From Alloascoidea africana (lineage: Eukaryota > Ascomycota > Alloascoideomycetes > Alloascoideales > Alloascoideaceae): a DNA stretch of 64,000 nucleotides. Below are positions 6,402 to 58,206 of the stretch, piece by piece. Position 1 is the stretch's first letter. Each line of letters opens with the position of its first letter. The position numbers were made by a program, and so were the translations under genes. A model generated the notes under the pieces. That model was given only the letters and a program-made list of their open reading frames with translations. It did not search any database and was not told the DNA's origin. The stretch lies in NCBI GenBank assembly GCA_030581615.1, contig JAKTTT010000004.1:434001-498000 (forward strand), given 5' to 3'.

Positions 6402-6530
6402 TGCGATGCTACAAAGTGTGTGAAGCGGGTGGTAGAGCTCAATTGGACGCAGAAAGAGAAAGAGAGAAAGAAGGAAATGGAGATGGAGATGGAGATGGAG
6501 CAAAAAGCACAATGGCCCATGCAATCCCGT

Positions 6531-6543
6531 ACACCCACACACC
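6531..6543 (+). promoter_or_regulatory. Rap1-like site in the TPS1/TFC1 bidirectional promoter
   Basis: ACACCCACACACC fits the Saccharomyces Rap1 consensus ACACCCRYACAYM exactly. It lies 130 bp upstream of TPS1 and 56 bp upstream of TFC1. It is followed by CCCCT, a stress-response-element core. That a Rap1-like factor binds here is inferred. Confidence 0.45.
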
Positions 6544-6598
6544 CCTCTTCTCTTCTCCAGATTCTTTTCGAGCATTTTCGTCTTCAACATCCAGCAAA

Positions 6599-8276
6599 AT
6601 GGCCCCGGACCAGCAGAACTGCCCGCGAGCACCGGTCTTTGCCCTGGACCTGCCAGTGCTGTCCTCTGTCGAGTTCCCGTTCTCCGTCCGGGACCCCGAG
6701 CGTGCTCTCGCGCTCGTCGGTGGGCCCGAGGCTGTCGCTAAGGTACAGTAGTGTCCAGTCCATTGTGTTCTCTCTATTGTTCTAACCCATTGTGCTCTAG
6801 AGCATTCTCTCGCGAGGAAAAACGCCCTTGGAGTTGAGATTCCGACCAGCAGATCCGTTTGAGCACCCAATTGCGTCCACGGCCGTCCAGAAGCAGAACG
6901 TGCTCGTCAAGGTGTCTCTGCCGAAGCGGCTGTTACGGCGGGCTCAAGGAGATGTTCAGCGAGCTATTGCCTTGGCGAAAGCGGAACGCGAGCCAAAGGA
7001 CAAGAAGCAGAAACAGCTGTATCAGATCGAGCCCGTGGCCATCATCGAGCGCATCTTCCGTTTCAGAGAGCTCAGCGACTTTCAGTACGTGACGAAAAAC
7101 AACAGCTTTAACAAAAACTACTTTGCAGACTCGATTGCAACCGGGAACCTCGACAAGATCAAGGACTTGCGGCTGTCCACGAGCAAACGGGATCCTGAGC
7201 AACTGGATTTGCTGCCACCGCCGCGATTCACGTCGTTCACGGTGCCCTTCCCCTATAGCTATCGCCAGAACCCGATGAGCGTCGTGGCGAAGGACGCGTC
7301 CGGGGCTCTCAAACTCGTGAACCGAACCTTCAACCCAACGCTCAACTCTACATTTGCGAATCTCAAGGACCCTGTGCCCCAGGCTCCGCCGCCCGTGCTC
7401 CAATCGCGAAAACCGGGAGGCAATTTGAAAAAGTGTATTGACGAGTTGAAGCAACTGTTTGCGCGCGATCCGATCTGGCAGCGCCGGGCCATCATCAGCG
7501 AACTGGACCCGGAGCTCCAGCCCTACGCCAAGTACGCGCTGCCGTTTGTGGCCTACTGTCTTCGAGACGGGCCGTGGGGGAACACGATGGTGCCGTTTGG
7601 GCTGGATCCCAAGTCCGACCCCAAGTACCGTATCTACCAGACCGAGCGGTTCCAGGTGCTTCGTAGCCAGAGCGAGATGGAGAGCGATACGCGGCCCTAT
7701 CGCGCGGACCTCGTGTTTGATGCCCAGACTCCCACCAAGGTGCGAAGCTTCCAGATCAAAGACATTTGGGACACGGATGTGCAAGGCCTGGTTGAACGCG
7801 ACTCTGCCGTGCGACCCGAGGTGGACTCTAAGGACGGGTGGTACACCGCGGAGACCATGGCCATTGTGCGCAGACTCGTGAAGATGAAACTCGGGTGTGT
7901 CATGTCCAACCGGCCCATCGACCAGGACTTGGTGCAACGGATTCTGAACGGCGAGGCCGAGTCCAAGCTCTACAAGAGAAGCCGCCGCCGTCGCCGAAGC
8001 GGCGGGCTGTTGTCACGGCCCACGGACAGCGTGTCTGCCGCGGGCGATGAGGATGACGAGGAGGATGAGGATGAGGAAGAGGAAGAGGAAGAGGACTACG
8101 AGAACGATGAAGAGGAAGAGGAAGAGGAAGAGGAAGAAGATGAGGATTTTGCAATCGCGATGGAGCTCGAAATGCAGCAGGAGGAGGACCGGGACCGGGA
8201 ACCCGACCCGAAGAGCAGCGGCAGCGGCACCCGAGACCCGGAGATAGACCCCGAGCTGCTGATCGAGGGCGGGTAA
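6599..8276 (+). CDS. TFC1: TFIIIC subunit, tau95/Sfc1 type
   Basis: A subunit of TFIIIC, the RNA polymerase III factor that reads internal A-box elements in tRNA genes. Exon 1 is 6599-6742 (48 codons, from MAPDQQNCPRAP to GPEAVAK). The intron is 6743-6800 (GTACAG donor, TCTAACCC branch, CTAG acceptor) and exon 2 is 6801-8276, giving 539 aa. Exon 1 supplies the family's start, LSSVEFPFSVRDPERALALV, followed across the junction by LRFRPADPFEHPIAS and NVLVKV. A middle domain with PIWQRRAIISELDPEL, LPFVAYCLRDGPWGNTMVPF and GLDPKSDPKYRIYQ is diagnostic of Tfc1/GTF3C5. The C-terminus is a long acidic Asp/Glu tract, as in other Tfc1 proteins. The gene is noticeably GC-rich compared with most of the window. 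Confidence 0.93.
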
Positions 8277-41689: not shown

Positions 41690-42647
41690 ATGGTATGCTA
41701 ACACTTTGATATTCTTTTTTCTAAGATCCATAACTCCCTGTCTGTCCACTGATTGATGGATATGTCCGGAATTTGTCGCCCATTGGATCGTCTCCTTTCT
41801 GGCTGATCCTGATGTTGTTTATTCTTAAACCCGACCCTAAATCTCAATGAATTGAACTGTTGAAGAGAAACCCCCAAAATGTGTTAAGATTAATCTAACT
41901 TTTACCCCTCAATAGTCTCGATCCGGGTATGCTTTTTTTTGTATAGCGGGTTCCAAGGTGGACGAAGTGGTGTGCTTCATTGGTGTCCAGAGGGCACGCC
42001 CATAACCATACCTTACATGTTCCGAGCAATGTTTTTTTTTCTCTTGATTTAGCCTGACTAATTCAGTTACTACTTTGTTCCAGTGTCACTGTTAACGACG
42101 AGGTTTTCACTGCTTTCAATGATCTAAAATTGGGCAAGAAGCACAAGTACATCATTATTAAATTGAACGACAGGAAGACTGAGATCGTCATCGATAAAGT
42201 CTCCAGCGACTCTGCCTATGATGCCTTTTTGGAAGATTTGCCTGAAAATGACGGCAGATATGCCATTTATGACTTTGAATATGAGCTGGATAGTGGTGAG
42301 GGAAAACGGTATGCTTTGCGTGAAACAATGATGTAACAAAATTGTTATGGATAACTAATCATTCCTTTGCGACTTTTCCCACAGCTCCAAGATCGTATTT
42401 TTCAGCTGGTCCCCCGACTCTGCCCCTATTAGAGTATGATCTGCTAAAACCCACATTATTCAAGTGATTTACGGGACAAAGATTCTAACTTTTTTTTTGT
42501 ACTATGATCTAGAGCAAGATGGTCTACGCTTCTTCCAAAGAGGGTCTTCGCCGCTCCCTAAACGGTGTTGCCTCTGATATCCAGGGAACTGATTACAGTG
42601 AGGTTGCATACGAGGCGGTTTTTGAGAAGGTCAGCAGCCGTATCTAA
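41690..42647 (+). CDS. COF1: Cofilin, five exons, first exon is the start codon alone
   Basis: An actin-depolymerising factor that severs ADP-actin filaments at cortical patches. Exons: 41690-41692 (ATG only), 41916-41926 (11 nt), 42084-42308, 42385-42433 and 42513-42647; product 140 aa. Introns are 223, 157, 76 and 79 nt, with GTATG-type donors; three of them have a CTAAC or CTAAT box upstream of the acceptor. The joined N-terminus [20 protein letters not shown] and the later [69 protein letters not shown] and [20 protein letters not shown] match yeast Cof1 position by position. Ser in MSRSG is the conserved regulatory N-terminus. S. cerevisiae COF1 has one intron near the same place; here the region is split twice. 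The end VSSRI is slightly different from the yeast tail. Confidence 0.94.
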
Positions 42648-43334
42648 GTTTCCCTTTTTTTTTTACTTGGTACCTTAGCTTTATACTCGCAAGTGATCCC
42701 AAACTTTTGATTAGGGTTATAAGAAGATTGTGTAGTGCCGAATTGAAAAGGTAAAGAAATAGACAATTTTCATCGTTCTATATCTTTTTTTGTGTGGCGT
42801 AAACTGTTTGAAATTTTATTTATAGGGCGCAAATCTTAGCTTCTATTGTAATGTTTTCAGGGAGCAGATCATTGATGAAGCACAATGGGAATCTAGTCAC
42901 TCGAGGATAGTAAATTGAGGTTTTCAAATTCGGGACAACAGAAGTTGATGATCCAACAATCACTATTCAAAATATTAAGTTCTAGTTTATAAAAAGTGAT
43001 CTTCTATCACTTGCATAACATTCCCTATTTCTCTTCATGGTGCTTAACCACTTGGATCAAAAGGGGTAGTATCAATACTAAGAGTCTATTTAGCAAGCTC
43101 AATTGCAAAGCATATAGTCACAAGATTACTGGATATATGAGTTCAACCTGACACACGACCAAGAACGTTCATTTCTTAACAGTTCCCTCCTTTTAGAAAC
43201 AAGTTCGTTGATCTTCTTCTTGGCCCCTTAAGCCAACCAGTGCGCGTGCTTCTGCCACACTTATGCAGCGATGAGGGAAACCAGTACCCATAGGCATATG
43301 CACACAGGACTATATATATGACTGACACTCATTG
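42648..43334. other. Intergenic, COF1 3' flank and ArgRS-1 promoter
   Basis: 687 bp, AT-rich, no supported gene. A TATATATATG at 43311-43320 lies close to the ArgRS-1 start. Confidence 0.55.
43311..43320 (+). promoter_or_regulatory. TATA box of ArgRS-1
   Basis: TATATATATG starts 24 bp before ATG 43335 and 87 bp before the in-frame ATG 43398. At normal yeast spacing it would mainly start transcripts that include only the second ATG. Confidence 0.4.
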
Positions 43335-45203
43335 ATGCTACTGCGTAGATTCTTTTCTACTACTTCTACCGCTGCTTTTTCATTATCTTCGAGATTAATG
43401 TCCTCGGTGAAGAATGTTGGTGGCATTGAGTACGTACCATATCCAGGCGCTAACCCAGAGCTGAACACAGTCGATCTATTCAGGTGCAAAATTTCACAAC
43501 AGCTCTCTGAAATATCTGGGGTTGATAGAAGTCTGATCTATCCTGCTCTCTCATGGACTACTCAAGCCGAACGGGGAGATCTAGTGATCCCAATTCCCAG
43601 GTTGCGAGTTAAGGGTGCTAAACCACAGGAACTAGCCGAGAAGTGGGCAAAAGCTTTCGACACAGGAGACTATTTAGAAAAAGTAAGCAGCAAGGGACAT
43701 TTCATTCAATTCCACTTCAACCCTAATCTGCTATCGAAGCTGATCATCCCCACGATTTTCCAGAAGGGCGAGGACTACGGTGCCTCTAGCATTGACAAGG
43801 GCAAGAAGGTTGTGGTGGAGTTCAGCTCGCCCAACATTGCCAAACCGTTCCACGCAGGCCACCTCCGTAGCACCATCATCGGGGGGTTCTTGTCGAACCT
43901 GTACTCCAAGGTCGGGTGGGAGGTCGTCCGGATGAACTACCTCGGCGACTGGGGGAAGCAGTTCGGCGTGCTGGCGGTCGGCTACGAGAAGTACGGCTCG
44001 GAGGAGAAGCTGGCGACTGATCCCATCGGGCACCTGTTCGAGGTGTATGTGAAGATCAACAAGGACATTGAGGCCGAGACGGCGGCCGCGGGTGAGGGTT
44101 CCGCTGGCGCCATCAACAACAGGGCCCGCGAGTTCTTCAAGAAGATGGAGGACGGCGATGCGGAGGCTCTGGCGGTGTGGAAACGGTTCCGCGAGCTGTC
44201 CATTGGCAAGTACAAGGACACGTACTCGCGGCTGAACATCCAGTACGACATCTACGACGGCGAGAGCCAGGTGTCGAAGGAGCTGATGCTGGAGGCCACG
44301 GCGAAGCTCACGGAGATGGGGCTCGTCAAGGAGGACAAGGGCGCCAAGATCATCGACCTGACCCCTTACAACAAGAAGCTGAACAAGGTGGTGGTCCAGA
44401 AGAGCGACGGCACGACGCTCTACATCACTCGGGACATTGGGGCCGCGATCCAGAGGTACGAGAAGCACCGCTTTGACAAGATGATCTACGTGGTGGCGTC
44501 GCAGCAGGACCTCCACATGGCGCAGTTCTTCAAGATCCTCCAGCTGATGGGCTACGAGTGGGCGGCGAACCTCCAGCACATCAACTTCGGGATGGTCCAG
44601 GGCATGTCGACCCGGAAGGGCACCGTGGTGTTCCTCAACGACATTCTGGAGGACACCAAGGACGCGATGCACGAGGTGATGAAGAAGAACGAGGCCAAGT
44701 ACGCCCAGATCGACGACCCCGAGAAGATCGCGGCGCTCGTAGGCGTCACCGCGGTGTGCATCCAGGACCAGTCGGCGAAGCGGATCAACAACTACGAGTT
44801 CAACTGGGCGCGGATGCTGTCGTTCGAAGGCGACACGGGCCCGTATTTGCAGTACGCGCACTCGCGGCTGCGAAGCGTGGAGCGCAACGCCAACATCGAC
44901 GAGTCGAGGCTGCTGGAGGCCGACCTCTCGCTGCTGACGGAGCCCATCGCGTCCACGCTGGTCCGGATCCTGGCCCAGTATCCGGACGTGGTGCTGAACG
45001 CCTACAAGACCCACGAGCCGTCGACGATCGTCACGTACCTGTTCAAACTGACCCACGTCGTGTCGTCGTGCTACGACGTGCTCTGGGTCGCTGGACAGAC
45101 CGAGGAACTGGCGGCCGCCAGATTGGCATTGTACTCAGCTGCTCGACAGGTTCTCTACAACGGTATGACCCTTTTGTGTCTAACTCCAGTTGACAGAATG
45201 TAG
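43335..45203 (+). CDS. Arginyl-tRNA synthetase, copy 1, with mitochondrial-type leader
   Basis: A class I synthetase charging tRNA-Arg, 622 aa. The leader MLLRRFFSTTSTAAFSLSSR is Arg/Ser/Thr-rich without acidic residues, typical of a matrix-targeting presequence. An in-frame ATG at 43398 (MSSVKNVGGIEYVPYPGANP) would give a cytosolic form of 601 aa. The catalytic signature is FSSPNIAKPFHAGHLRSTII (HxGH as HAGH) followed by GDWGKQFG. The class signature replacing KMSKS lies in GMVQGMSTRKGTVVFL, and the DALR-type anticodon-binding end includes GPYLQYAHSRLRSVERNA and YNGMTLLCLTPVDRM. From 43884 to 45112 I read it as identical to copy 2. Its 5' 400 bases and 3' flank have diverged. The conserved core is markedly GC-rich compared with its own 5' end. 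It may serve mitochondria (Msr1-like role) or both compartments. Confidence 0.94.
   Translation: MLLRRFFSTTSTAAFSLSSRLMSSVKNVGGIEYVPYPGANPELNTVDLFRCKISQQLSEISGVDRSLIYPALSWTTQAERGDLVIPIPRLRVKGAKPQELAEKWAKAFDTGDYLEKVSSKGHFIQFHFNPNLLSKLIIPTIFQKGEDYGASSIDKGKKVVVEFSSPNIAKPFHAGHLRSTIIGGFLSNLYSKVGWEVVRMNYLGDWGKQFGVLAVGYEKYGSEEKLATDPIGHLFEVYVKINKDIEAETAAAGEGSAGAINNRAREFFKKMEDGDAEALAVWKRFRELSIGKYKDTYSRLNIQYDIYDGESQVSKELMLEATAKLTEMGLVKEDKGAKIIDLTPYNKKLNKVVVQKSDGTTLYITRDIGAAIQRYEKHRFDKMIYVVASQQDLHMAQFFKILQLMGYEWAANLQHINFGMVQGMSTRKGTVVFLNDILEDTKDAMHEVMKKNEAKYAQIDDPEKIAALVGVTAVCIQDQSAKRINNYEFNWARMLSFEGDTGPYLQYAHSRLRSVERNANIDESRLLEADLSLLTEPIASTLVRILAQYPDVVLNAYKTHEPSTIVTYLFKLTHVVSSCYDVLWVAGQTEELAAARLALYSAARQVLYNGMTLLCLTPVDRM
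43737..45203 (+). repeat. Paralogous block, ArgRS copy 1 (partner 56349-57815)
   Basis: Direct-orientation partner of the block at 56349-57815, at a constant offset of 12,612 bp with no gaps. By eye the differences are a 12-bp patch at about 43790-43801, single differences at 43883, 45113 and 45116, and one near 45186. The interval 43884-45112 (1,229 bp) shows none. Confidence 0.9.
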
Positions 45204-45764
45204 AAAAAATGTATATAGTCTTTTCTGTTTCAACTCCTCCTTAATTTAGATCAATGCATTTATGAGTAAATATAAGGCCAGCGTGCTTTTACGAAATAGT
45301 GCTTGTCCTTGTAATTTTGGTATCTTTTTGTTGATGTCATAAGCTATGATCTTTTTGTCAATTGAAACCAAAGGAATAGGGAATTGTTGGTCTTGAATCA
45401 GAGAAACCAAGACCATGTCATATACTACAGATATTCAACACATTAAATAGCCTCAATCTCAACTGATCACTTTTTTTACCTTTCCAATTGCAACTTTCTA
45501 GTTCTACGCTTCATAAATGACTAGCTTAAGAAGACTCAAAGTTTGGCTTTACTTACCAATCATAGCCAAAGTTGTAAATGGGGAAGCGGAAGAAAAATCA
45601 TCTCCTCTTCCTTCTCTTTTTCTGAGATTTTTAGGGTTCGTGGAAAATCAAAAACTCATCAGTTCACAGAAATAGCCATTGAGCTACTATTTACAGTCTT
45701 TTAAAACCAAATGTGGGTCTAATTATACTTGTCTATCCTGAAAGTTCATCACAATTCCATTATT
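45204..45764. other. Intergenic, ArgRS-1 3' flank
   Basis: 561 bp. No gene is seen, and nothing here resembles the 3' flank of ArgRS copy 2, so the duplication does not extend past the stop codon. Confidence 0.55.
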
Positions 45765-46214
45765 TTACTCAGATTTACTTTTTACTGGACTAAGAATGTA
45801 GCGATATTGGCGGATCCAGCTGATGAGCTCTTCCCATTCCGATAAATTAGGCAGGTTCTCCTCGGCATATCCCTCGGGGAACTTGTGAGCCAAGTTGGGC
45901 GGCGGCACAACGTCACTGATTGAGTACTTAGTCTTGCAAAAGTTGTCTCTGTTCGCGGCATCCAGGGAAATCCCCTCTATGCTCATCTTATACTCTTCCC
46001 GCATTTCGCCCGTGCCCAGGTACACATTGATCGGGGACGAAAACCTATCGTTGAATAGCGAATTCGGCACAAGCCCACACGGATAGTAAATCTTGCCCTC
46101 CACAGACGTCTTCAAAGGATTGCAATCATCACTCAACTCGTCCTCCAAAGCCATCTCGCCCTTGATCTGGCACGAATAGTAACTCATGACATACTTGTGG
46201 TGATTCTGGTAAAA
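45765..46214 (-). pseudogene. CDC50/LEM3-family fragment, truncated at both ends
   Basis: The minus strand encodes the middle of the ectodomain of a Cdc50/Lem3 protein, the beta subunit of lipid-flippase P4-ATPases. Homology begins with FYQNHHKYVMSYYSCQIKGE, continues through CNPLKTSVEGKIYYPCGLVP, NSLFNDRFSSP and HKFPEGYAEENLPNLSEWEE, and stops after LISWIRQ. The family's first transmembrane segment, the rest of the ectodomain and the C-terminal transmembrane segment are absent. The homologous frame meets a stop codon just upstream of FYQN, and downstream the expected WMRTAALPTFRKLY-type sequence is replaced by an unrelated short tail. I found no exon for the missing parts in either flank. 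The remaining 130 codons are still open. It is best read as a decayed duplicate; a short secreted or regulatory product cannot be excluded. Confidence 0.75.
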
Positions 46215-47945
46215 CCGGTGGTTTCATGTCTCCAGGGATCAAAAACTGAACTCGACAACTTATCTGGCTCCCGTTCAACTCGAGCCGCCATCGCGGAAAT
46301 GCGAAAAAAAAACGTACCTGATGGGAATCTCACCAAACTGCTGTGTCGAGGCCTCGCAAAACAGTCATCTATATTTGTGGCTGGTCTCAACAAATTCCAA
46401 TTGTTCCTGAAAGCCCTCCACTAACCGCTATTTCTACACCCCGCGGTCTCATCCTGTTTTGCTCCCTCACAAGGCTATACCAACTCCCCGCACTGCTTTC
46501 AAGCGATCCTGGCCTTAATTCTTGCAAATTTCATTCCCAAATACCTCTTCATATTTTTCGACGATGGCGTAGTTTACTCCCCGTCTTCGTCAGCCTCTTG
46601 CTCCGAGCTAGTTGATATGCTCCATCAGGGTTTGTGTAACATGTGCGTGCGAGGAGACGAATTGTGGGAAAGGCCATATTAATTGATCGAGGAGGATTCA
46701 AACTTGTTCATCTGCTATCTAGCGAATACATGCTCTATTTAAGTGAAGTTATGTTTTGGGGTGGTACGAGGTCGCATATGCGAGATTGCGTAAAACTACG
46801 AAGGAAAGAGTGTATCGGTTGTTCTGGGGGTTTGCGTAGTTTAGAATTGAACCGTTAATACGTTATCAGTCAGAGACTACATCAGATATACTTGAAATTG
46901 ACAATTAAAGCATCTTCGAAAAGGCCATTAAGCATGTCAGCTTTTTCCGTGCTTAAGATAATTTAAGACATTTGATGTCACTTAGAGTAGATCGTAAACT
47001 CGTGGTAAATGTCTTTGATTAGATCTAATATCTTAGGTACTGATAAAGCTGCTACATTATCTGACCACTGGCTTGCAGGCTTTCCAACAGACTTTTTCCC
47101 GCTTTGCACAGAGTCTGGGCGGCTTTTCCATAAAATCCGGGCGTTTTTCTCTCATTCTTTGACAACCGCTTCCTTCGCCCGCGGATCATTTGTAAACATT
47201 ACCATTGCATGATTTCCCGTAATCAACAATTCGAAACTGTTGAAGGAACCTGCAGCCTAATACATAGGTATCTCGTACCCATTCCTCCACACTCTGGGTT
47301 GGGGATGTCCCAGCTGCTCTTCTTTCTTATGTTCTAGCTGATGGTTAAAGGCAAATTTGAAAAAATTGTCACACTCTTTAAAACTTAGAGTTGGCTTGGA
47401 CTCACAGTTGAATGCTTTCAACCGTATTGGGTCGTGGGTTCTTAAAGGATTCTCTTTCTCTGTGTGAAACTTGACATCTCGAATGCAACGGTTAACCCTC
47501 GTAAAGCAACCCTGGGTGCCCTTCGTCTCTCCTTGAAAAATCGGATACTTACTAAGGTTTCAAGTTTGTCTATCGCAGAAACCAAATTGCTTCCAACATG
47601 TTCATGGGGTTTCTGCATTCCACATCAGACCTGTCCATCATGAAGTCTGATAAGCCATTCAATTGTTCACCCATCACTGTAGCCGAACACTGAGACATTC
47701 AGTTTTGCAAAACAATGTTACAATCTTTCGATTGAATGAAAAGGAGTTGCGTTGAATGACTTAGGAAGGAACTTCTCCTTAAATGGGAGAGAAGGTGCCA
47801 TATCTAAGATGTGACTGAACTTCCTCCTGAATGGTTTCCACCCACCCCGAGTTTGACCATGGTCAGGTGTTTCCGTAGCTTCTTGAGCGCTCGGATTCGA
47901 GCAAGCTCCGACACGAAGTCAGCTTCTTGAGTGTGAGACCGATTT
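46215..47945. other. Long non-coding or decayed region
   Basis: 1.7 kb with only short open frames whose translations resemble nothing I know. 47080-47170 has a promoter-like look (CCATAAAATCC, CGG-type motifs) but no gene follows. This and the next 3.8 kb form the one gene-poor part of the window. Confidence 0.5.
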
Positions 47946-48070
47946 AGCAAATTATATTATTCTCATCAATCATAATGTCGTGACTTTAATCAGAGCTTTA
48001 CCCTTACACTGGCCGAAAAAGCTTTTTACAGTCTTATATGATTCTTTATTTAGAGTAAATAAGAGATCTA
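47946..48070. repeat. Dispersed direct repeat, copy A (about 125 bp)
   Basis: Runs from AAATTATATTATTCTCATCA through TCGTGACTTTAATCAGAGCT to AAGAGATCTA. It matches 50043-50165 in the same orientation at roughly four-fifths identity by eye. It could be a terminal-repeat remnant or a duplicated promoter piece. Confidence 0.7.
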
Positions 48071-48796
48071 AACTCAGGGTTTCGAGTTTCGAGTTTAGAT
48101 CTTTAGTGCTTACGCTTACAATAATTACTGTTTTCTCGTTTAACAATATTCCAGATTGCCGGACACATTCTTGGGAATCTCAACCAGTGGAGGACAGTCA
48201 TGATCTACTTCCAGAATATTTGCTTGACTACTCGCTTGCAAGAAAGCATTCGTCTGCTTGAGCTGAGTTGAATTGTATCCCAGATTATCCTCTTAACCGG
48301 TACACCAAGGATCCGTCACCCGTTTGCGCTTTTCAGTCATACACCCCCCGCCTCCCTTCTCGAACCCTTACAGTTGGCATATTAATTTGTTTTCATGTGC
48401 CCACATTCGAAGACTGAGATGCAACCACATCAATACTAGACTCCACCCAAAGGCTCAAAAAGTTTGAGGATGAGGAGTATGGGTGTTTACATAGTAAATA
48501 CTTCCATAGTAGAAATAGTCCCAGCATGAAACAAAGAGCCAAAATCTGTCAACGTGCCACCAATAGAAGATTCAGTGGGTTTCAACCACGAAATCCGTAG
48601 CACTATCGACAGCTGCGTATGCCTTTGTTTTAGAACACAATATACTCCCCTCACCCTCACCCTGCCCCCGTCAGCACTTGTAGACACCTCGCAAGATTCT
48701 GAGGACGTCAGAAGGGTTCACCGGCTTCCTCTCACGAGTATCCAAATCCATCACCACTGACTTGTACGAAGATCCCCTCTAATCTAGACTTGGGGA

Positions 48797-49270
48797 AATC
48801 AACGCCGGAAGTGAGCGAATGTGGAAACGACTCAACAGAACCTGCAAGACAGGCTATAAGCAGCGCATTTCCAGCAGACCAACGACTAAGGACAACAGGG
48901 TCGGACTTCTCCTCATGGGATCAGACACTTCTACATTTTCTTCAAAGAAAGGGACGGGATTTATTAATCGTGGCTACGATGCCCATCTCATTCCCTGACG
49001 AGAACTTCTCCCGAGAGACATGTGGGACTACTGTTGATATTTTTGTTCTTTTTCCAACCCGGATTCCTCCATGATCGATTATTGGGAGGAATTGGGTTAC
49101 AGTGCAAAGTTTATCCTGATGGAATTCGTCGAATTTGGAGAAACACTCGAAATCACCCAAGCAGACTGGCCCACAACCGCCTATACACTATATGGCGCGA
49201 TCTGTCAGATCGGGTCACCAGGTGATTACAGATATCCTTGCATTACGAAACCAACATTTTTCCAAACTTA
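48797..49270 (+). mobile_element. Fossil fragment, possible LTR-retrotransposon Gag-like, left arm of inverted pair
   Basis: A broken copy of the sequence found on the other strand at 49271-49830, starting at AAATCAACGCCGGAAGTGAG. It is clearly more decayed than its partner, with several breaks. The family assignment is weak and rests on the partner's protein pattern. The two arms meet tail to tail with almost no spacer. Confidence 0.45.
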
Positions 49271-49990
49271 ACAATGTCTTTAAAAGAAACTATCTTTGTT
49301 TCCAAGTTGTGAAACGATATGTTGTAAGACATCAGAAGTTCTTTAATGTTGTTGGAATATTGCTGATTTCGGAGTGCCAAAATATCTGTTATAACCTGGT
49401 GACCCACATTTCCGATCTGACAGATCGCGCCGTAGAGTTCATATGCGGTGGACCATTCCGCCTGGGTGACTTCCAGGGTTTCTCCAAATTCGACTGAGTC
49501 CATTAAAATGAACTTTGCACTATAATCAAGTTCTTCCCAGTAGTCAATCATGACTAAGTCCGAATTGGAGAACCGAACAAACTCATCAGCTTCATTCCCG
49601 TATTTGTCGCGTGAAAAACTGGTATCAAGAAATGGGACGGGCATCGTAGCTACGATGAGCAAATCCCGACCCATTCTTTGTAAAAATTGTCGAAGAAACT
49701 GATCCCACGAGGGGAAATCCGACCCTGCTGCCTTTAGACGTTGGTCTGCAGGGAAGGTACTACTGGTTGCAGCCTTGCAGGTTCGGTTCAGTCGTTTCCA
49801 CATTCTCTCACTTCCGGCGTTGATTTCAAGAGTAGCGTCTCTCTCAAGAATAGACGGTCCAGTAGCATAGGAGACATCGGCTGAAGATGAACCAGGACCC
49901 GTGGGAACAATAGGAACAGTAGTGACAGAAGGACCCGTAGTACATGAAGGAAGTGGACCGTGACTACTAGAGCTACCGCCTTTTAAGAAA
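49243..49990 (-). mobile_element. Fossil fragment, possible LTR-retrotransposon Gag-like, right arm of inverted pair
   Basis: A minus-strand frame of roughly 240 codons with a Ser/Thr/Pro/Gly-rich N-terminal part and a helical part containing DQRLKAAGSDFPSWDQFLRQ, IDYWEELDYSAKFILMD and STAYELYGAICQIG. The pattern (small hydrophobic, FPSWDQFLRQFL, later W/Y-helix repeats) recalls Gag capsids of copia-like elements, but I recognise no specific family and no protease, integrase or reverse-transcriptase sequence nearby. It appears incomplete as an element. The 125-bp direct repeat at 50043-50165 lies just upstream of it. A host-gene origin remains possible. Confidence 0.4.
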
Positions 49991-50042
49991 AAGTACTCAT
50001 AACAGAAAATTAAACGTCAGTCCCTGTTTTCATTAAAAGTTA

Positions 50043-50165
50043 TACAAATTATATTATCATCAATCATGATGTCGTGACTTTTATTCAGGGCTTTACCCTT
50101 AAACTGGTCCAAATAAATTTTGCCAGTCTTTTATAGTTCTTTACTTAGAATATATAAGAGATCTA
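50043..50165. repeat. Dispersed direct repeat, copy B (about 123 bp)
   Basis: Partner of 47946-48070, in the same orientation, 2.1 kb away. On the minus strand it contains a TATA-like CTATAAAAGAC and lies immediately upstream of the minus-strand fossil frame, so it could be that fossil's promoter or terminal repeat. Confidence 0.7.
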
Positions 50166-50589
50166 CGAACTCCATATTCGTCATCCTCACCTTCATCTCC
50201 TACATCCATCATGTTTGGGTGTTCCTCGTCGATCCCTGAAACTGACTCAATTTTGTCACATTCAAAAGTGCAATCATCATAGTTAGAGAAGGTTTAGTGT
50301 TTCGTAGATGGAAAGTAACTGCACATGATCTAATCTAGACACATGCAGAGCGAAGCGAAGAAAAGAAAAACAGAACCGGAAAACTCCTCTGGGGAACCTT
50401 GAAATCTCAGAGAACCAGGAGCTTTTATATTCGACTAAAAATAAAAGCTACTATGTTTGAGATTACTGACGCTCCTGTAATCGCGGACATATCCAGAACA
50501 GACAAAGCAATCACGTCGCCGTGTCACACTATACTAACGGACTAGGACCGAATCGGAAAAGATCGGCAAGTCCACAGAAGAAAAAACAG

Positions 50590-51660
50590 AGCGTTAGAAT
50601 CCGATACTCCACAACTTCTGCAAGGAGGTTGTTGACATTGGTCTCAGGATCCGATCAAGCAAGTTCCCATCATCATCAGTAGTAAAGGCTGGGTAAAGCA
50701 TGCTGAAGTTCAACGATCCTGCACGCCTAACCGCCGTAATGACTGGCTTCCGTAAGCGCGTCTCTGTCCTTCCACGACATTCTCGGAAAAACATACTCTC
50801 AAGGGATACTGAGGATAGGTATCGCTTAGACTTTGTGAGGAAGGAAGACTGGACCGTTTTTACCAGTTTTTGGAGCGGGAAACTTTGTTGTGAAAATTGA
50901 CTTGTAAGCTCGCTTCTTGTTTTGTCTCCTTCTGGGATGTTTTAAGCGCTCTCTTTATTTTCCAGTGCGTAATCAGGAGGTATGAGATTTTTAGACTTGT
51001 CACCATTGGTGTGGCCAAGAGTAATAAGGTGATCTTGGTGGTGGTGATGCTGATCATGGTAACCAGTCAGACTTTGTGGGAGAGCCAGTGGGCCATCATT
51101 TCACCCGCAGAGGTTGTGAGGAAGACACATGGGATCAGAATGCCATGAGGTATGAGTACATTAAGCCAGGTAACTTTTGAAAGGGCAGAAGATGAGATAG
51201 GTCCATTGTCGGCACTAGCCAACGGTAAGCTGAAGCTATGGCTGCTTTCCAACGAGGTGACGACAAGAGAAATCGAAATTGCCGAGATGGCTGAGGAATC
51301 CACCAACAGCTTCAAGCGCTTGATCCTCAATAGTAGAATTTGACAAACGTATGGACGAGAGTATAATGAAGAGGCAGAAACCAAAAAGAAGAGTCAAGTT
51401 CAGCTCGGTCCCATGTATGATGGATTCCCTTGGAATAAAGTTGACGAAGAGGAGTACATTGGTAGGAAGTTGAATATTAGCTCTGTTTTAGTCTGGTTTT
51501 CTATATATTACAGGAGGTATAGCGTTTCTATGATCAGTAGGATGTCATCCAAGGAGGTACTACTTTGGAGAATGGGAGTATGAGAGTAAGATCGAGCTCC
51601 TCTGTCAGCACTTGGGCCTGTTCATATGTGCCTAAAGTGAGGGTAACCCCAACTTCTTGA
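50590..51660 (+). other. Possible decayed spliced gene, unidentified
   Basis: No long frame exists here, but short plus-strand segments have coding character. These include DWTVFTSFWSGKLCCEN near 50850, GGGDADHGNQSDFVGEPVGH and CEEDTWDQNAMRYEYIKPGN (51030-51180), and KKKSQVQLGPMYDGFPWNKV (51390-51440). Intron-like joins are visible, for example GTAAGCTCG to TTTCCAG at about 50906-50966. I could not assemble a consistent reading and do not recognise the segments. It may be a pseudogene or a gene with many short exons. Confidence 0.3.
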
Positions 51661-51753
51661 TAGACCGCACCTGAGTTTAGTAGTGATTCGAAAAGTTAAA
51701 CTTGAATCCGTTTTGGCCATACCAGTTGTTGATTTAAACCAAATCAAGTGTTT

Positions 51754-53809
51754 ATGCTCGGTGGCAAAGCAGGCTTGACAAAGTTGATCATTTCTCCAGT
51801 ACTTTTCTCCCGGATTCTAACCCTATCGCCACATCAACAACCATCATTTGCATTTTTAAAGGGTGTTCGCTGTATTCACAGATCTAAAGCGGGACGAGGA
51901 GTTGAGTACACTGGCAATACAATATCAAGTAGAAGCTTGTCAAGCCATAACATCGCATTGGATACCAACAACGCTAGCTTGGATCAGCCTGTTTTCAAAA
52001 GACAGCGACGATTTTCTTCTTCAATTGACACTCGGAAAGAAAGTTTCAACGCTTTTCCATTGAGCTTGGAAAATTTAAACCCAAGCCCTAAGCCAAAGAT
52101 GATAGACCAAAACATCAAGCTTAATGCACAGGAATCGCAAATTCAATCTCTTCTTGTTGAGTTTGCGGCTTATACGGACGCCCAAAATCCAAATCGAAAA
52201 GAAGATCTGATACTTCGAATCACAGGCGGCTGGGTCCGCGATAAACTGCTGGGTCTGGAGAGCAATGACCTGGATATCGGAATTAACAGCATGACTGGGG
52301 CAGAGTTTGGTGAAAAATTGAATACATTTCTCGAATTGAAAAACCAGGAAGAAAATAAGAGTAACGAAAGCGCATACGTAAAGCATGGCATTCACAAGAT
52401 CGAAAAAAATCCTGAAAAGTCAAAACATTTAGAAACGGCAACAACTAAGCTATTTGGTCTTGATGTGGACTTTGTTAACCTGCGTAGTGAGGAATACACT
52501 GATCAAACATCCCGGATTCCAGCTTCAGTTGAATTTGGTACCCCTGAGCAAGACGCACTGAGAAGAGATGCCACCCTAAATGCACTTTTCTATAATTTGC
52601 ACACAAGAAAGGTGGAGGATTACACAGGGCAGGGATTGAAGGATTTAGAATTGGGCGTTTTAAGGACACCATTACCAGCATTTGAAACTTTTAGAGATGA
52701 TCCTTTAAGAGTTTTGCGTTTAATTCGATTTTCAAGCAGATTTGGCTTCAGGATTGCTGAAGAAGCAATCTCCGCTATTTTGGAGCATAATGCAGAAATA
52801 AACGAAGCTCTTGAGCTGAAAATAAGCAGAGAGAGAATAGGAATTGAAATAAAAAAGACTCTGGCCTCCCCTCAGCCTTCTTTGGGACTATCTTGGATTG
52901 CTGATTTAGGACTTTGGGACTCAATCTTTACACTCCTTGAGCAATTTCATCCAACAGGTAACAAGCCGACTCCATCAGGAAAGGCCAATGCACAGTCTTC
53001 GAACTTATCTTCTTCTGATAAGTCAAGCATTGAGCAACAAAGCACAATTGCAAATGTGTTTGACAAATCCAAATTCAAGGAAACTATTTCAAAATGTGGT
53101 GAACTTTTAGACAATAAGACACTTCCTTTAGAACTCTCTGAACTTACTAAGAAAGGAAAAGAAAATGAATTAACATGGCTTTCTGTTGCTCTAAGTCCCT
53201 GGGGGACAACGGAGGCCCTCAACGAAAAGAAAAAGAAATGTCTGGCTGTTTCAATGGTTGTAACATTTGGCCTAAAACTTCCCAGACAAGAAGGTGATTT
53301 GGTAGCGAAGATTTTCCAACACTGTGAGCAAACTGCCTCTCTTACCGAAAGGAACTTCACGAGTAATGAAAATGAATATGTTGCACAAAATCGATTAGAT
53401 GTTGGAATATGGCTTCGTGAGTGTGGAGAATCATGGAAACTTTTCGTTTTTTATGCGATGATCCACGAGGCAGTTTATCAATCTCCACAATCCAAAGGTA
53501 CGGGTCAAATAATCATTTTTTCCACTAATTTTTGTCAATATTTTCTAACAATCGAATTTTCTAGTTGAAGAGGTTATTGGGAAGTTTAAACCTCTGCTTG
53601 ACTTTATATCTCTCCAGAAACTTGAGCACGCTTACAATCTGAAGCCCATTATTGATGGGAGATTAATGTCAAAAGAACTCCAACGAAAGCCAGGACCTTG
53701 GATGGCTAAGGCACTAAAGAGGGTTATTGAATGGCAATTAGCTCATCCACAGGGAACTAAAGGGGAATGTTTAAATTATGTCAAGAATTTAGATATTGAC
53801 AAGTTATGA
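51754..53809 (+). CDS. CCA1: CCA-adding tRNA nucleotidyltransferase, two exons
   Basis: Adds or repairs the 3' CCA of tRNAs in nucleus/cytosol and mitochondria. Exon 1 is 51754-53497, intron 53498-53564 (GTACGG donor, TTCTAACAA box, CTAG acceptor), exon 2 is 53565-53809; product 662 aa. The first 115 residues are a basic, Ser-rich leader likely to target mitochondria. An in-frame ATG at 52099 (MIDQNIKLNAQESQIQSLLV) gives 547 aa, close to Saccharomyces Cca1, so nested starts may supply both compartments. Catalytic landmarks: RITGGWVRDKLLG, NDLDIGIN (metal Asp pair), FGTPEQDALRRDATLNALFY, VEDYTGQGLKDLELGVLRTP and FRDDPLRVLRLIRFSSRFGF. The 3' exon encodes GPWMAKALKRVIEWQLAHPQ, the usual C-terminal helix of the eukaryotic enzyme. 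Confidence 0.95.
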
Positions 53810-53887
53810 GGTACTTTATGACATCTCAAGAAAACAGCATCTATGTTTCTTTATGCACTAGTTCCCTAGACTGCAGAAGCGGCCTTT

Positions 53888-55186
53888 CTATCTCTTATAT
53901 CCCAGCTCGCCTAGACTCTCTTTAATCGCATTAAAAACCTTGTCAATATCATTTCTTCCCTCCTCAACGACAGAGACACCCATATGTCCAATGCGGAAGT
54001 ATTTATCTGCAATTCCTTTATATAGTCCGCCTGCTAGAACAACTCCTTTCTCAGCTATCAAGGGTAAAAGATCAGCGTTGCTTATATTTTCTGGAAGATA
54101 GACGGCTGTCAAACCATGAGCTCCCACCCCTGGGTTAGAAACGAGTCGAAGATTCAGTTCTTCTTGTAATTGCTGTTTAAACTTATCGGAAACTGTTGCA
54201 TGCTTTGCAAACCTCGATTCGATCCCTCCATTGAGCACCTCATCCAAAGATACATTCAATGCAGTAACAGATTGTACCGCGGGAGTAGCGAAGTAGGCGC
54301 CTTTTCCCGATTCATAGGCCTTCATTATAGGAGTCCATCTCTTCAAGCTGGCAAAATATGTTGAATCTTCAGTCCGTTCAAGTGCTTTTTTCAATGCCCT
54401 TTCGCTAGAATACAAAACAGAAAGACCAGCGGGTGCACTGAGAGCTTTTTGTGAAGCCGTTAGGACAAAGTCCAGTCCCCATTCGTCAAATCGAATCTCT
54501 TCCACACCTACGGAGCAAACTCCGTCCACGACAATCAAAGTCTCCGGTGAAACATTTTTCACTATCTTGGCAACCTTTTCGATATCGGTCAGAACAGCGC
54601 TTGACGTGTCTACGTGGGTGATGGTAATAATCGCATATTTTTCCTTTTTCAAGGTCTCTTCAACTACTGCCACATCAACAGCATTTCCAACGTTCGCGCT
54701 CAAAAGAGTCACATCAGAACCATAGACTCTCAAACAGTCAGCAAATGCATCTCCAAAATACCCAGAAGACAAAACCAACGCTTTTTCTTTTTTCTGAACT
54801 AAATTCGAGGCTACAACATCCCAACCCAGAGTGCCGGAGCCAGACAAGATGTATGGCTGGGCACTCCCAGCACTTGACAAAAAAACTTGTCGAAGCTTCC
54901 CTAATGCCGATTGAAAAGTGGAAATGAACTGCTTCGAGGTATGAGCCTGTGATGGTGTCGCCATTGCAGCGAGGACTTTATCCGAGAACTCTATCGGGCC
55001 GGGGATCATGGTAAGCGGATGGTCGGGCTGTTTGTACTCGAAAGAAGAAACATATGAGCTGGAAAGAAACCTGATTGATGATGGATAAGAGACCTGTCCT
55101 GAAATTGAAGGCTTCATTAGAGGGCCATTGGCCATTTCCCGAGACCTTTGTAGGACTCTTCGAACAGCGTTGGCTCTGAAGTTCAT
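53888..55186 (-). CDS. AGX1: Alanine:glyoxylate aminotransferase
   Basis: A PLP enzyme making glycine from glyoxylate and alanine. The 432-aa product begins with a basic leader (MNFRANAVRRVLQRSREMAN), so mitochondrial location is likely, as in yeast. Landmarks: TMIPGPIEFSDKVLAAMATP, LSGSGTLGWDVVASNLV, VLSSGYFGDAFADCLRVYG, ITHVDTSSAVLTDIEKVAK, VVDGVCSVGVEEIRFDEWGL, the PLP lysine in LTASQKALSAPAGLSV, and KGAYFATPAVQSVTALNVSL. It converges with CCA1, with 78 bp between stops, and has no visible intron. Confidence 0.94.
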   Translation of the reverse strand: MNFRANAVRRVLQRSREMANGPLMKPSISGQVSYPSSIRFLSSSYVSSFEYKQPDHPLTMIPGPIEFSDKVLAAMATPSQAHTSKQFISTFQSALGKLRQVFLSSAGSAQPYILSGSGTLGWDVVASNLVQKKEKALVLSSGYFGDAFADCLRVYGSDVTLLSANVGNAVDVAVVEETLKKEKYAIITITHVDTSSAVLTDIEKVAKIVKNVSPETLIVVDGVCSVGVEEIRFDEWGLDFVLTASQKALSAPAGLSVLYSSERALKKALERTEDSTYFASLKRWTPIMKAYESGKGAYFATPAVQSVTALNVSLDEVLNGGIESRFAKHATVSDKFKQQLQEELNLRLVSNPGVGAHGLTAVYLPENISNADLLPLIAEKGVVLAGGLYKGIADKYFRIGHMGVSVVEEGRNDIDKVFNAIKESLGELGYKR

Positions 55187-56009
55187 TTGAGTGGCTGTTA
55201 TGTGGGGAAGATCTTCACACTGTGATTTGTTGTCTAATCTATCGCGTTTTAACTACAGATGGAATCAGCACAACGAGCATTGAACCTTTCTAGCCCTACC
55301 ACAAATCTGTTTATCATATTTTCATGGAACAAACTTCCAGTTGATCAATTTTTAACTTTAATTGTTTACATAAGTGTCCTTTTCAACGTAGTTTGTTAAG
55401 TATGATCAGCCATAAAGATACTCAGAAAACAATTAATATCAATATGAGCACCACGCGAACATCAATCAGCTTCGTATACTGATAGAAGATAAAACCAAGG
55501 ATAGTCGAACCTCTCTGATGAAAAGTGATTTCAACTTGACCTTTGCTGGATAATTGATTTACAGATCAATATCTCATACTCCATTCTACAGATTCTCTTT
55601 ACAAACCATGAAAAGGATTATGAAGATTTAGACCTAAACCCAAGTTTGACATACACATTTCAGACCAGATTGAGTATTGCTCATATCTTCTGCAATTGAA
55701 AATAGATGATGGTAAGAAAAAGTTTGACAATACTTTACACTCCATCATTATAGTAAGCTAAGCTAGAGAGTGACTCACAAATCAAAATTGTTAACTAAAT
55801 CAATGTTCAACAAAGAAAATCTCAAGCACCAACTATGAGTAACATGTTTAACCATTTCCTCTTTTCATTCTCACAGTCTGGTAAAAATTTGAAAAATTTG
55901 ACTGGTTCGATTTATGACTCTGAGATACATCACGTGACACCACTGTAAAGAATAAAAAAGTCTTCAATTCCAATCCAGCTTTTCATCACATTTTCATCAA
56001 TACTAGATA
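55187..56009. other. Intergenic, divergent promoters of AGX1 and ArgRS-2
   Basis: 823 bp, AT-rich, with no gene. It shows no resemblance to the upstream region of ArgRS copy 1, so the two synthetase copies have independent promoters. It contains an ATCACGTGAC E-box. Confidence 0.55.
55931..55936. promoter_or_regulatory. CACGTG E-box upstream of ArgRS-2
   Basis: ATCACGTGAC is a full match to the Cbf1 consensus, 74 bp before the start codon. ArgRS copy 1 has no such box in its upstream region. Confidence 0.4.
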
Positions 56010-57815
56010 ATGTCCGAAGTAAAGACCATCGGTGGCATTGAGTACGTTCCTTACCCTGGCTCCAACCCAGAGTTGAACACTTTTGACCTATTCAGATGCA
56101 AAATTTCACAACAGCTCTCTGAAATTTCCGGGGTTGATAGAAGTCTGATCTATCCTGCCCTTGAATGGACTACTCAAGCCGAACGTGGAGATCTAGTGAT
56201 CCCAATTCCTAGGTTGCGAGTTAAAGGTGCTAAACCACAGGAACTAGCCGAGAAATGGGCCAATGCTTTCGAAACTGGTGACTATTTGGAGAAGGTGAAT
56301 AGCAAAGGTCCTTTCATCCAGTTCTACTTCAACCCAAAGTTTCTTTCCAAGCTGATCATCCCCACGATTTTCCAGAAGGGCGAGGACTACGGTGCCTCTA
56401 AAGTGGGAGAGGGCAAGAAGGTTGTGGTGGAGTTCAGCTCGCCCAACATTGCCAAACCGTTCCACGCAGGCCACCTCCGTAGCACCATCATCGGAGGGTT
56501 CTTGTCGAACCTGTACTCCAAGGTCGGGTGGGAGGTCGTCCGGATGAACTACCTCGGCGACTGGGGGAAGCAGTTCGGCGTGCTGGCGGTCGGCTACGAG
56601 AAGTACGGCTCGGAGGAGAAGCTGGCGACTGATCCCATCGGGCACCTGTTCGAGGTGTATGTGAAGATCAACAAGGACATTGAGGCCGAGACGGCGGCCG
56701 CGGGTGAGGGTTCCGCTGGCGCCATCAACAACAGGGCCCGCGAGTTCTTCAAGAAGATGGAGGACGGCGATGCGGAGGCTCTGGCGGTGTGGAAACGGTT
56801 CCGCGAGCTGTCCATTGGCAAGTACAAGGACACGTACTCGCGGCTGAACATCCAGTACGACATCTACGACGGCGAGAGCCAGGTGTCGAAGGAGCTGATG
56901 CTGGAGGCCACGGCGAAGCTCACGGAGATGGGGCTCGTCAAGGAGGACAAGGGCGCCAAGATCATCGACCTGACCCCTTACAACAAGAAGCTGAACAAGG
57001 TGGTGGTCCAGAAGAGCGACGGCACGACGCTCTACATCACTCGGGACATTGGGGCCGCGATCCAGAGGTACGAGAAGCACCGCTTTGACAAGATGATCTA
57101 CGTGGTGGCGTCGCAGCAGGACCTCCACATGGCGCAGTTCTTCAAGATCCTCCAGCTGATGGGCTACGAGTGGGCGGCGAACCTCCAGCACATCAACTTC
57201 GGGATGGTCCAGGGCATGTCGACCCGGAAGGGCACCGTGGTGTTCCTCAACGACATTCTGGAGGACACCAAGGACGCGATGCACGAGGTGATGAAGAAGA
57301 ACGAGGCCAAGTACGCCCAGATCGACGACCCCGAGAAGATCGCGGCGCTCGTAGGCGTCACCGCGGTGTGCATCCAGGACCAGTCGGCGAAGCGGATCAA
57401 CAACTACGAGTTCAACTGGGCGCGGATGCTGTCGTTCGAAGGCGACACGGGCCCGTATTTGCAGTACGCGCACTCGCGGCTGCGAAGCGTGGAGCGCAAC
57501 GCCAACATCGACGAGTCGAGGCTGCTGGAGGCCGACCTCTCGCTGCTGACGGAGCCCATCGCGTCCACGCTGGTCCGGATCCTGGCCCAGTATCCGGACG
57601 TGGTGCTGAACGCCTACAAGACCCACGAGCCGTCGACGATCGTCACGTACCTGTTCAAACTGACCCACGTCGTGTCGTCGTGCTACGACGTGCTCTGGGT
57701 CGCTGGACAGACCGAGGAACTGGCAGCAGCCAGATTGGCATTGTACTCAGCTGCTCGACAGGTTCTCTACAACGGTATGACCCTTTTGTGTCTAACCCCA
57801 GTTGACAGAATGTAG
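56010..57815 (+). CDS. Arginyl-tRNA synthetase, copy 2, cytosolic
   Basis: 601 aa, starting MSEVKTIGGIEYVPYPGSNP with no targeting leader, hence the likely cytosolic enzyme. It carries the same core as copy 1: HAGH in PNIAKPFHAGHLRSTIIGG, GDWGKQFGVLAVGYEKYGS, GMVQGMSTRKGTVVFL and an intact DALR-type end YNGMTLLCLTPVDRM. Residue differences from copy 1 are confined to the N-terminal 130 residues (for example TFDLFRC against TVDLFRC, LEWTT against LSWTT, KVGEGKK against SIDKGKK). The rest of the two proteins looks identical. Because an aminoacyl-tRNA synthetase is essential and both frames are whole, both genes are probably active. Confidence 0.96.
   Translation: MSEVKTIGGIEYVPYPGSNPELNTFDLFRCKISQQLSEISGVDRSLIYPALEWTTQAERGDLVIPIPRLRVKGAKPQELAEKWANAFETGDYLEKVNSKGPFIQFYFNPKFLSKLIIPTIFQKGEDYGASKVGEGKKVVVEFSSPNIAKPFHAGHLRSTIIGGFLSNLYSKVGWEVVRMNYLGDWGKQFGVLAVGYEKYGSEEKLATDPIGHLFEVYVKINKDIEAETAAAGEGSAGAINNRAREFFKKMEDGDAEALAVWKRFRELSIGKYKDTYSRLNIQYDIYDGESQVSKELMLEATAKLTEMGLVKEDKGAKIIDLTPYNKKLNKVVVQKSDGTTLYITRDIGAAIQRYEKHRFDKMIYVVASQQDLHMAQFFKILQLMGYEWAANLQHINFGMVQGMSTRKGTVVFLNDILEDTKDAMHEVMKKNEAKYAQIDDPEKIAALVGVTAVCIQDQSAKRINNYEFNWARMLSFEGDTGPYLQYAHSRLRSVERNANIDESRLLEADLSLLTEPIASTLVRILAQYPDVVLNAYKTHEPSTIVTYLFKLTHVVSSCYDVLWVAGQTEELAAARLALYSAARQVLYNGMTLLCLTPVDRM
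56349..57815 (+). repeat. Paralogous block, ArgRS copy 2 (partner 43737-45203)
   Basis: See partner. The longest run without differences is 56496-57724. Confidence 0.9.
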
Positions 57816-58206
57816 AGATGTCCCGTGGTCGCATCTTAGTGTTAGTACTTTTATAGGAACTTAAAGAAGATATGTTAATACAAGTTGAAGCTTAAAGTGT
57901 TAAGGATGTACTTGTCTTTTTCCATCAATTATTATAGATACAGCGGTTGTGGTGGAGTCTAAGAAACCAATTACTTTTCTATGGTCAATAGAGCTGAGGA
58001 ACTACTTTATAAACTGAAGATTTGGAATGTAGATTCTGACTTTGGAGTACATGCTCATCTTCATAATAGATCTCTTTAATAGTGACAATTATGAGGTTTT
58101 TTGTTCAATATATGAAACAAAACAAAAAAAAAAAATGCGAATACTAACAAGAAAAAAATGTAACCAGATCAATCAGGAATTGCTTTCAGGTATTGCTTCC
58201 ATGAGT
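57816..58206. other. Intergenic between convergent ArgRS-2 and EFR3
   Basis: 391 bp, AT-rich, including an A-run near 58122. Nothing else is seen. Confidence 0.55.

Follow-up and report, generated by a model that had tools for sequence, protein, structure and literature searches.

How can two genes of one genome agree base for base over most of their coding sequence and have nothing recognisable in common on either side of it? The question is raised by the window analysed here, a stretch of 64,000 nucleotides from Alloascoidea africana. Copy A (43335..45203, plus strand) encodes an ArgRS of 622 aa and copy B (56010..57815, plus strand) an ArgRS of 601 aa, and both carry the complete domain set of this enzyme, namely Arg_tRNA_synt_N, tRNA-synt_1d and DALR_1. 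Searches of the assembly found no third ArgRS locus, so that the count stands at two. Between the copies lie a minus-strand ORF with a CDC50/LEM3 profile match (45765..46187) covering the middle of the profile (positions 75-199 of 286), a plus-strand ORF with a PolyA_pol head domain match (51754..53568) and a minus-strand ORF of a class-V aminotransferase with an Aminotran_5 match (53888..55186). The last two we take to be CCA1-like and AGX1-like, respectively, following the gene names of an earlier, sequence-only reading of this DNA; its suggestion that the essential role of CCA1 may keep the two copies in this arrangement would be compatible with such a gene content.

That reading described copies in direct orientation at a fixed offset of 12,612 bp, a long stretch free of mismatches, dozens of differences in the 5' 400 bases and unrelated flanks, all of which our comparison bears out. 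The offset is constant, and the exact run measures 1,229 bp, from 43884 to 45112 in copy A and from 56496 to 57724 in copy B (plus strand in both). Along 43398-45203, copy A differs from copy B at 64 of 1,806 bases; 60 of these sites fall in 43398-43797, where 17 codons carry an amino-acid change, and the remaining 1,406 bases hold four differences, all silent. Divergence is concentrated in the part coding for the N-terminal tRNA-binding domain, and the Arg_tRNA_synt_N match of copy A (about 43485-43718, plus strand) lies inside it. Similarity starts and stops near the start and stop codons, and flanks of about 1.5 kb gave no plus-strand blastn match at E<0.1 with a word size of 7. When 64 differences were placed at random in 100,000 trials, the longest gap was 362 bp. 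Silent divergence is high in the 5' part (pS 0.43, dS 0.63), zero in the identical tract and low in the last 30 codons (pS 0.13, dS 0.14); had the tract diverged as fast as the 5' part, it should carry about 119 silent changes. In short, the two genes are homologues that sit at separate loci between flanks lacking homology, and silent divergence along them switches abruptly between substantial and almost none, as in gene-converted pairs. Ectopic gene conversion between the ArgRS copies is thus well supported.

A feature that the earlier reading did not contain is an island of GC-ending codons over the tract. Such codons make up 384 of the 409 in the tract (94%), 66 of 133 and 67 of 133 in the 5' parts of A and B, and 15 of 30 and 14 of 30 at their 3' ends (Fisher p 6e-28 for the tract against the 5' part of copy A). 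Maximum likelihood placed the island at 43734..45089 in copy A (GC3 0.931 inside, 0.429 outside) and at 56346..57701 in copy B (0.927 and 0.463), both on the plus strand. The limits, fitted separately, fell on the same codons, although only the island edges are independent between A and B, since A and B do not differ along most of its length. Both ends lie inside the coding sequence, near the rise of divergence, and the left edge is graded. In eleven other window genes, a background from which the GC-richer ORFs in the first 13 kb were excluded, GC3 is 0.396; in 85 sampled ORFs, with those of the first 13 kb and of other loci included, its mean is 0.46. The best 400-codon block in ArgRS reaches 0.945 and the next, among 72 mechanical ORFs, 0.83. 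Both ORF sets were drawn up mechanically; certain of their ORFs are spurious or antisense, and a few of the loci overlap. Nor is the sampling random, for most of the ORFs lie in loci that had been retrieved for another purpose, and the others in six chosen 10-kb stretches. The GC of 600-bp bins is 0.357 (42601-43200) and 0.408 (45001-45600, part coding) beside copy A, and 0.337 (55201-55800) and 0.403 (57601-58200, part coding) beside copy B. Third-position divergence and GC3 are inversely correlated along the genes (-0.73, 30 windows of 20 codons), a relation that fails inside the 5' part, where the windows at 43518 and 43578 have three and two third-position differences at a GC3 of 0.33 and 0.35. 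The last 90 bp of the copies, too, are 97% identical, yet their GC3 is ordinary.

Translational selection is unlikely to have built the island, because the tract favours GCG, CTG, TCG, ACG and GTG, and its G-ending codons are hardly used by either EF-1alpha gene. At 4-fold sites, the tract has G 0.57, C 0.38, T 0.04 and A 0.02, and the share of G in the two EF-1alpha genes is 0.03 and 0.01. Codon adaptation to EF-1alpha, a reference of two genes, is 0.33 in the tract, 0.43 in the 5' part of B and 0.30 in that of A. Silent-site GC in the tract therefore exceeds both the local background and the codon optimum, as expected of GC-biased conversion. An overlapping antisense gene was considered and rejected: the lack of TTA, CTA and TCA leaves the antisense frame open throughout the 409 tract codons, and the lack of CAT leaves it without an ATG.

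The earlier reading had taken recent ectopic gene conversion as the simplest account. Conversion itself stands on the identity run, the distribution of differences and the flanks; a single recent event as the whole account does not, since bringing a tract to 94% GC-ending codons, against about 50% elsewhere in the same genes, takes many substitutions and hence a long action of conversion or of some other GC-driving process. Rather than one recent copying event, we favour concerted evolution over a long time, with repair biased towards G and C. The exchanged part would be the coding sequence for nearly all of the catalytic domain and for the anticodon-binding domain; mismatch repair during the exchanges would favour G/C and, over many rounds, would have raised third positions to 94% GC, and the latest exchange between the copies would be recent. 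The 5' end may have dropped out of exchange either because it is too divergent for efficient pairing or because the difference between the tRNA-binding domains is maintained by selection. At equilibrium, such a composition would need a population-scaled bias B of about 3.2-3.5 against the 11-gene background, or about 2.9 (hand calculation) against the 0.46 mean of the 85 ORFs. The age and direction of conversion are what we infer rather than observe, and codon usage gave no clear sign of which copy was the donor.

Copy A is probably the mitochondrial form and copy B the cytosolic one, a prediction that draws on the presequence of A, on a stop codon in frame ahead of the ATG of B and on the better codons of B. 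At 25 of the 31 silent codon differences in the 5' part, copy B has the EF-1alpha-preferred codon (p 0.0009). The presequence (43335..43397, plus strand) comprises 21 codons without counterpart in B, with three arginines and no acidic residue; directly after it, an in-frame ATG stands at the site matching the start of B. Its helical moment, 0.41 against 0.32 in B, is weak evidence for a presequence. Copy B lacks such an extension and has an in-frame TAG two codons upstream of its ATG. Taken together, we lean, with some reserve, towards linked compartment-specific ArgRS paralogs in concerted evolution by recurrent ectopic conversion with GC-favouring repair. The fuller version, in which conversion is strongly GC-biased and long-running and selection for compartment-specific tRNA recognition shields the N-terminal domain from exchange, we put forward only tentatively, as a possibility more doubtful than not.

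Conversion might also have equalised the copies while the island arose otherwise, at an allelic recombination hotspot or as a prior GC patch in one ArgRS gene that was copied once, recently. We hold this to be unlikely but the most serious of the alternatives, for the genome is patchy: several other sampled ORFs have 100-codon blocks with GC3 of 0.80-0.93, and GC rises to 0.6 in places within the window's first 9 kb. Regions rich and poor in GC3 are described for several yeasts in passages of PMC9246145. For the one GC3-rich ORF searched genome-wide (L037, 0.93), no near-identical partner was found, so paralog conversion is not required for GC enrichment. Against such an origin, at least one window patch (6601-7200, GC 0.57) takes in intergenic DNA, whereas the ArgRS island ends within coding sequence on both sides and is the most extreme among the sampled ORFs. 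Cross-comparison of 52 loci (308 kb) at 88% identity or more yielded, besides overlapping loci, only the ArgRS, EF-1alpha and eEF2 pairs. The EF-1alpha pair is 95% identical with a GC3 of 0.59-0.61 per 40 codons, and the eEF2 pair 97% identical with 0.47-0.72; GC enrichment is thus not seen in these other near-identical paralogs, a weak test in that codon choice may mask the effect. The eight HSP70 loci compared, of 12 found, are at most 84% identical. A gene pair closest to PDB chains named NUCM (complex I 49-kDa protein), which we take to be from Yarrowia, has saturated silent sites (pS 0.72) and five differences in the last 400 residues. COX1 was not found in the assembly search.

It is improbable, in our view, that the copies really differ in the tract and that the assembler wrote one repeat sequence twice. 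In the eEF2 pair, four contig ends all lie exactly 115 bases beyond the last difference, as in a k-mer graph, and a repeat-loop-repeat like that of ArgRS could be unrolled without a read spanning the repeat. Exact identity is therefore to be read as identity as assembled, since isolated differences within a longer repeat could be smoothed away. However, identical runs of 275 bp (eEF2) and 145 bp (EF-1alpha) were crossed without a break, so that longer repeats were resolved at least sometimes; differences as dense as those at the 5' end would presumably survive smoothing, and collapse should not make near-identity out of a pair in which 43% of silent sites differ. The searches turned up no ArgRS sequence left over beyond the two, and the GC3 island is real in at least one copy regardless of the assembler.

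Still less probable is a foreign tract, in which an ArgRS segment from a GC-rich organism took the place of the native sequence in one gene and later passed to the other by copying. The abrupt change of composition and a codon usage unlike that of the background genes and EF-1alpha would suit it; the graded left edge of the island and the closeness of the tract protein to the ArgRS of S. cerevisiae (62 of 77 residues in the first part of the tract; 965 bits for the whole of B) speak against it, the latter to a limited degree, since a conserved core taken from another fungus would also give a high score. We know of no yeast donor with 94% GC3. A precedent is a GC3-rich region of Lachancea kluyveri, ascribed to introgression in passages of PMC9246145. 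Finally, recent copying of the coding sequence alone, as a retrocopy or a segment, followed by fast 5' divergence, would explain why similarity starts and stops near the start and stop codons, but a dS of 0.63 over 400 bp adjoining zero over 1,229 bp demands a mosaic history rather than a single age and makes this scarcely credible.

Concerted evolution by recurrent, GC-favouring conversion, the reading we prefer, has several partial parallels. Mammalian histone genes are a case of converted duplicates whose GC has increased. That paralogs undergoing conversion have a higher GC is also what the title of Benovoy et al. 2005 conveys; measured against that title, the ArgRS pair is set apart by how large the effect is (94% against about 50% within a single gene) and by how nearly it coincides with the tract. 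Whether conversion favours G/C in yeasts is unsettled, with work on both sides cited in passages of PMC11540330, including the tetrad work of Liu 2018, cited there as suggesting little effect of biased conversion on S. cerevisiae GC. In S. cerevisiae duplicates, as excerpted from PMC3924837, concerted evolution is likewise limited to the coding region and the flanks are unrecognisable; here, homogeneity also breaks off within the coding sequence, close to where the N-terminal domain ends, and is accompanied by a GC3 island. The same excerpt describes human red/green opsin genes, in which functional sites stay divergent while conversion continues elsewhere, whereas selection on the ArgRS N-terminal domain is a proposal of ours. 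The ArgRS genes RRS1/YDR341C and MSR1/YHR091C of S. cerevisiae stem, according to an extract of PMC7049704, from the whole-genome duplication, and they too are an ArgRS pair from one duplication; one of them is essential and inferred to be cytosolic, and the other has a mitochondrial localisation sequence, as copy A may have. Set against that description, the present pair differs in lying 12.6 kb apart and in being homogenised over most of the coding sequence. A whole-genome duplication is not favoured as its origin because of this short distance.

With 94% GC3 in the tract and about 50% at the ends, at the same two loci and in the same cell, the ArgRS pair offers an internal control that genome-wide correlations lack, and is a good place to ask how biased ectopic copying is. 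If our scenario is true, the compartment-specific enzymes share one evolving core while their address and tRNA-binding module diverge: DNA repair would keep the core common to two compartments, leaving the tRNA-binding module and the address tag as the sole parts free to differ.

Both ArgRS genes of the window, which forms part of contig C4 in the 23.2-Mb, 138-contig assembly, encode the complete ArgRS domain set; the alignment of S. cerevisiae ArgRS with copy B covers residues 4-601 (965 bits). No third ArgRS locus was found in the assembly, as a catalytic-domain search and a DNA search with copy A each returned the same two places. Copies A (43335-45203) and B (56010-57815) share, as the sequence-only reading had claimed, a tract of 1,229 bp that is identical as assembled (43884-45112 in A, 56496-57724 in B, offset 12,612). 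The claimed dozens of 5' differences are there as well: 60 of the 64 differences fall within the first 400 of 1,806 shared bases (43398-43797 in A), while the remaining 1,406 bases hold four, all silent. When the differences were placed at random 100,000 times, the longest gap was 362 bp, against the observed 1,229. Silent divergence (dS) drops from 0.63 in the 5' part to 0 in the tract and is 0.14 over the last 30 codons; applied to the tract, the 5' rate predicts about 119 silent changes there. The final 90 bp are 97% identical with ordinary GC3 (GC at third codon positions), and the flanks, described earlier as unrelated, have no detectable similarity over ~1.5 kb. Since the 5' part has diverged silently, the copies separated well before their last exchange, presumably a recent one.

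The two eEF2 genes help to read this identity. They are spread over four contigs (C5, C51, C90 and C121; loci L016, L017, L058 and L059), each ending exactly 115 bases beyond the last difference, as a k-mer graph with k of ~115 would do on meeting a long identical repeat. Because the contigs end there, the middle of eEF2 (~520 bp, estimated from the protein length) is absent at both loci. Even so, the assembly passed through identical stretches of 145 bp in EF-1alpha and 275 bp in eEF2 without breaking. The ArgRS repeat-loop-repeat makes one consistent path and could therefore be written without spanning reads. Scattered differences inside the tract may have been smoothed by the assembler, so that identical means identical as assembled; the near-identity of the copies and their GC3 island stand despite this caveat.

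Third positions are GC in 384 of the 409 tract codons, compared with 66/133 (A) and 67/133 (B) in the 5' parts and 15/30 (A) and 14/30 (B) at the end. The fitted island spans the same codons in both genes (43734-45089 and 56346-57701), only its edges being independent, since most of its length is the same sequence in A and B. GC3 correlates with third-position divergence at -0.73 (30 windows of 20 codons), but the correlation fails inside the 5' part, two windows of which combine few differences with low GC3. Pooled GC3 is 0.396 in 11 other window genes, picked from outside the GC-richer first 13 kb, and averages 0.46 over 85 sampled ORFs. Both ArgRS genes hold the top 400-codon block (0.945; 72 mechanical ORFs with 400 codons or more) and the top 100-codon block (0.98, the next being 0.93; 87 ORFs with 200 codons or more).

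Translational selection does not explain this composition, since G occupies 0.57 of the tract's 4-fold sites (A 0.02, T 0.04, C 0.38) and only 0.03 and 0.01 of those in two EF-1alpha genes. Recent ectopic conversion had been proposed from the sequence, and identity, mosaic divergence and unrelated flanks make a gene-conversion pair well supported. One recent event does not suffice as the whole account: a single conversion homogenises sequences and leaves composition unchanged, yet third positions are 94% GC in the exchanged stretch and ~50% in unexchanged ones. The simplest reading is repeated exchange between A and B with repair favouring GC, which would have built up the GC3-rich tract. We infer both this bias and the time over which it would have acted. 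If composition is at equilibrium, a two-state formula, which we assumed, would require a bias B of ~3.2-3.5 against the 11-gene background, or ~2.9 by hand against 0.46. An excerpt of PMC11540330 states that GC is usually raised by GC-biased conversion (citing Lesecque 2013) and that the effect is possibly unimportant in S. cerevisiae (citing Liu 2018); one of PMC9246145 describes regional GC3 variation in several yeasts, with one GC-rich region being an introgression. Among the open-licence literature matches listed, we recognised no report in which a mitochondrial and a cytosolic ArgRS gene had undergone conversion with each other.

Other sampled ORFs also contain GC-rich patches. In the first 9 kb of the window, patches at 1055-2872, 3178-4278, 4836-6590 and 7275-8273 have GC up to 0.6 and 40-codon GC3 up to 0.9; at least one patch there extends over intergenic DNA, and much of the later window has GC of ~0.40. 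Among the sampled ORFs, next after ArgRS in 400-codon GC3 comes L037:2261-3973 (0.83), elsewhere in the assembly, with a Pfam KilA-N match; L042:865-2868 (0.81) and L045:673-2085 (0.75) are 51% and 55% identical to the L037 protein over part of the length. Two further gene pairs are nearly identical, namely EF-1alpha on C20 and C1 (95.2% over 1,376 bp, with one more gene on C19 at 79-80%) and eEF2 (97.2% in 668 bp, 97.5% in 1,343 bp). GC3 is raised in neither pair; biased conversion is therefore not general here, or is hidden by codon selection. HSP70 paralogs reach at most 84% identity (8 of 12 loci compared). The complex I 49-kDa (NUCM) genes on C18 and C34 (L008 and L009) differ at 5 of the last 400 residues, with silent sites saturated and N-termini dissimilar, and show the picture of old duplicates without recent exchange.

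Between the ArgRS copies lies a near-palindrome (48795-49827) with two ~500-bp arms, 74% alike. It holds an inverted copy of a gene of unassigned family, with an open frame at 49243-50016 on the minus strand; the plus-strand copy is seemingly broken across several frames, resembling a decaying pseudogene. No Pfam match was obtained for 49243-49803. A direct repeat of ~120 bp (47948-48070 and 50045-50165; 83%, ~2.1 kb apart) lies either side, which gives the whole the look of an element that was inserted or duplicated.

Copy A starts with 21 extra residues, including three arginines and no acidic residue, and its next ATG sits at B's start position. With the helical moment of A's start (0.41) barely above B's (0.32), mitochondrial targeting of A is no more than likely. 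A short upstream ORF, ATG ACT GAC ACT CAT TGA, overlaps A's start codon (TGATG) at 43335; it may be outside the transcript, since a TATATATA stretch lies immediately 5' of it. An in-frame TAG two codons upstream of B's ATG leaves B without an N-terminal extension unless spliced. The copies use different synonymous codons at 31 positions, and at 25 of them the one preferred in EF-1alpha is in B (p 0.0009), which would be expected if B were the cytosolic form and more highly expressed. For S. cerevisiae, PMC7049704 describes two ArgRS genes derived from the whole-genome duplication: RRS1 (YDR341C), essential and inferred to be cytosolic, and MSR1 (YHR091C), whose product has a sequence for mitochondrial localisation.

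In copy A, the Pfam match to the N-terminal domain covers residues 51-128 and lies inside the diverged part; the catalytic match begins at residue 141, divergence is low from about residue 155 onwards, and the exact tract opens at residue 184. At 16 amino-acid differences alignable to S. cerevisiae ArgRS, the S. cerevisiae residue is found in B six times, in A once and in neither nine times. One A-specific change puts histidine in place of proline at S. cerevisiae position 108, adjoining N106, F109 and Q111, which reportedly read A20 of tRNA-Arg (Delagoutte 2000). Both copies keep F109 and Q111, and both have lysine for N106. It is possible that selection spares the N-terminal domain from conversion.
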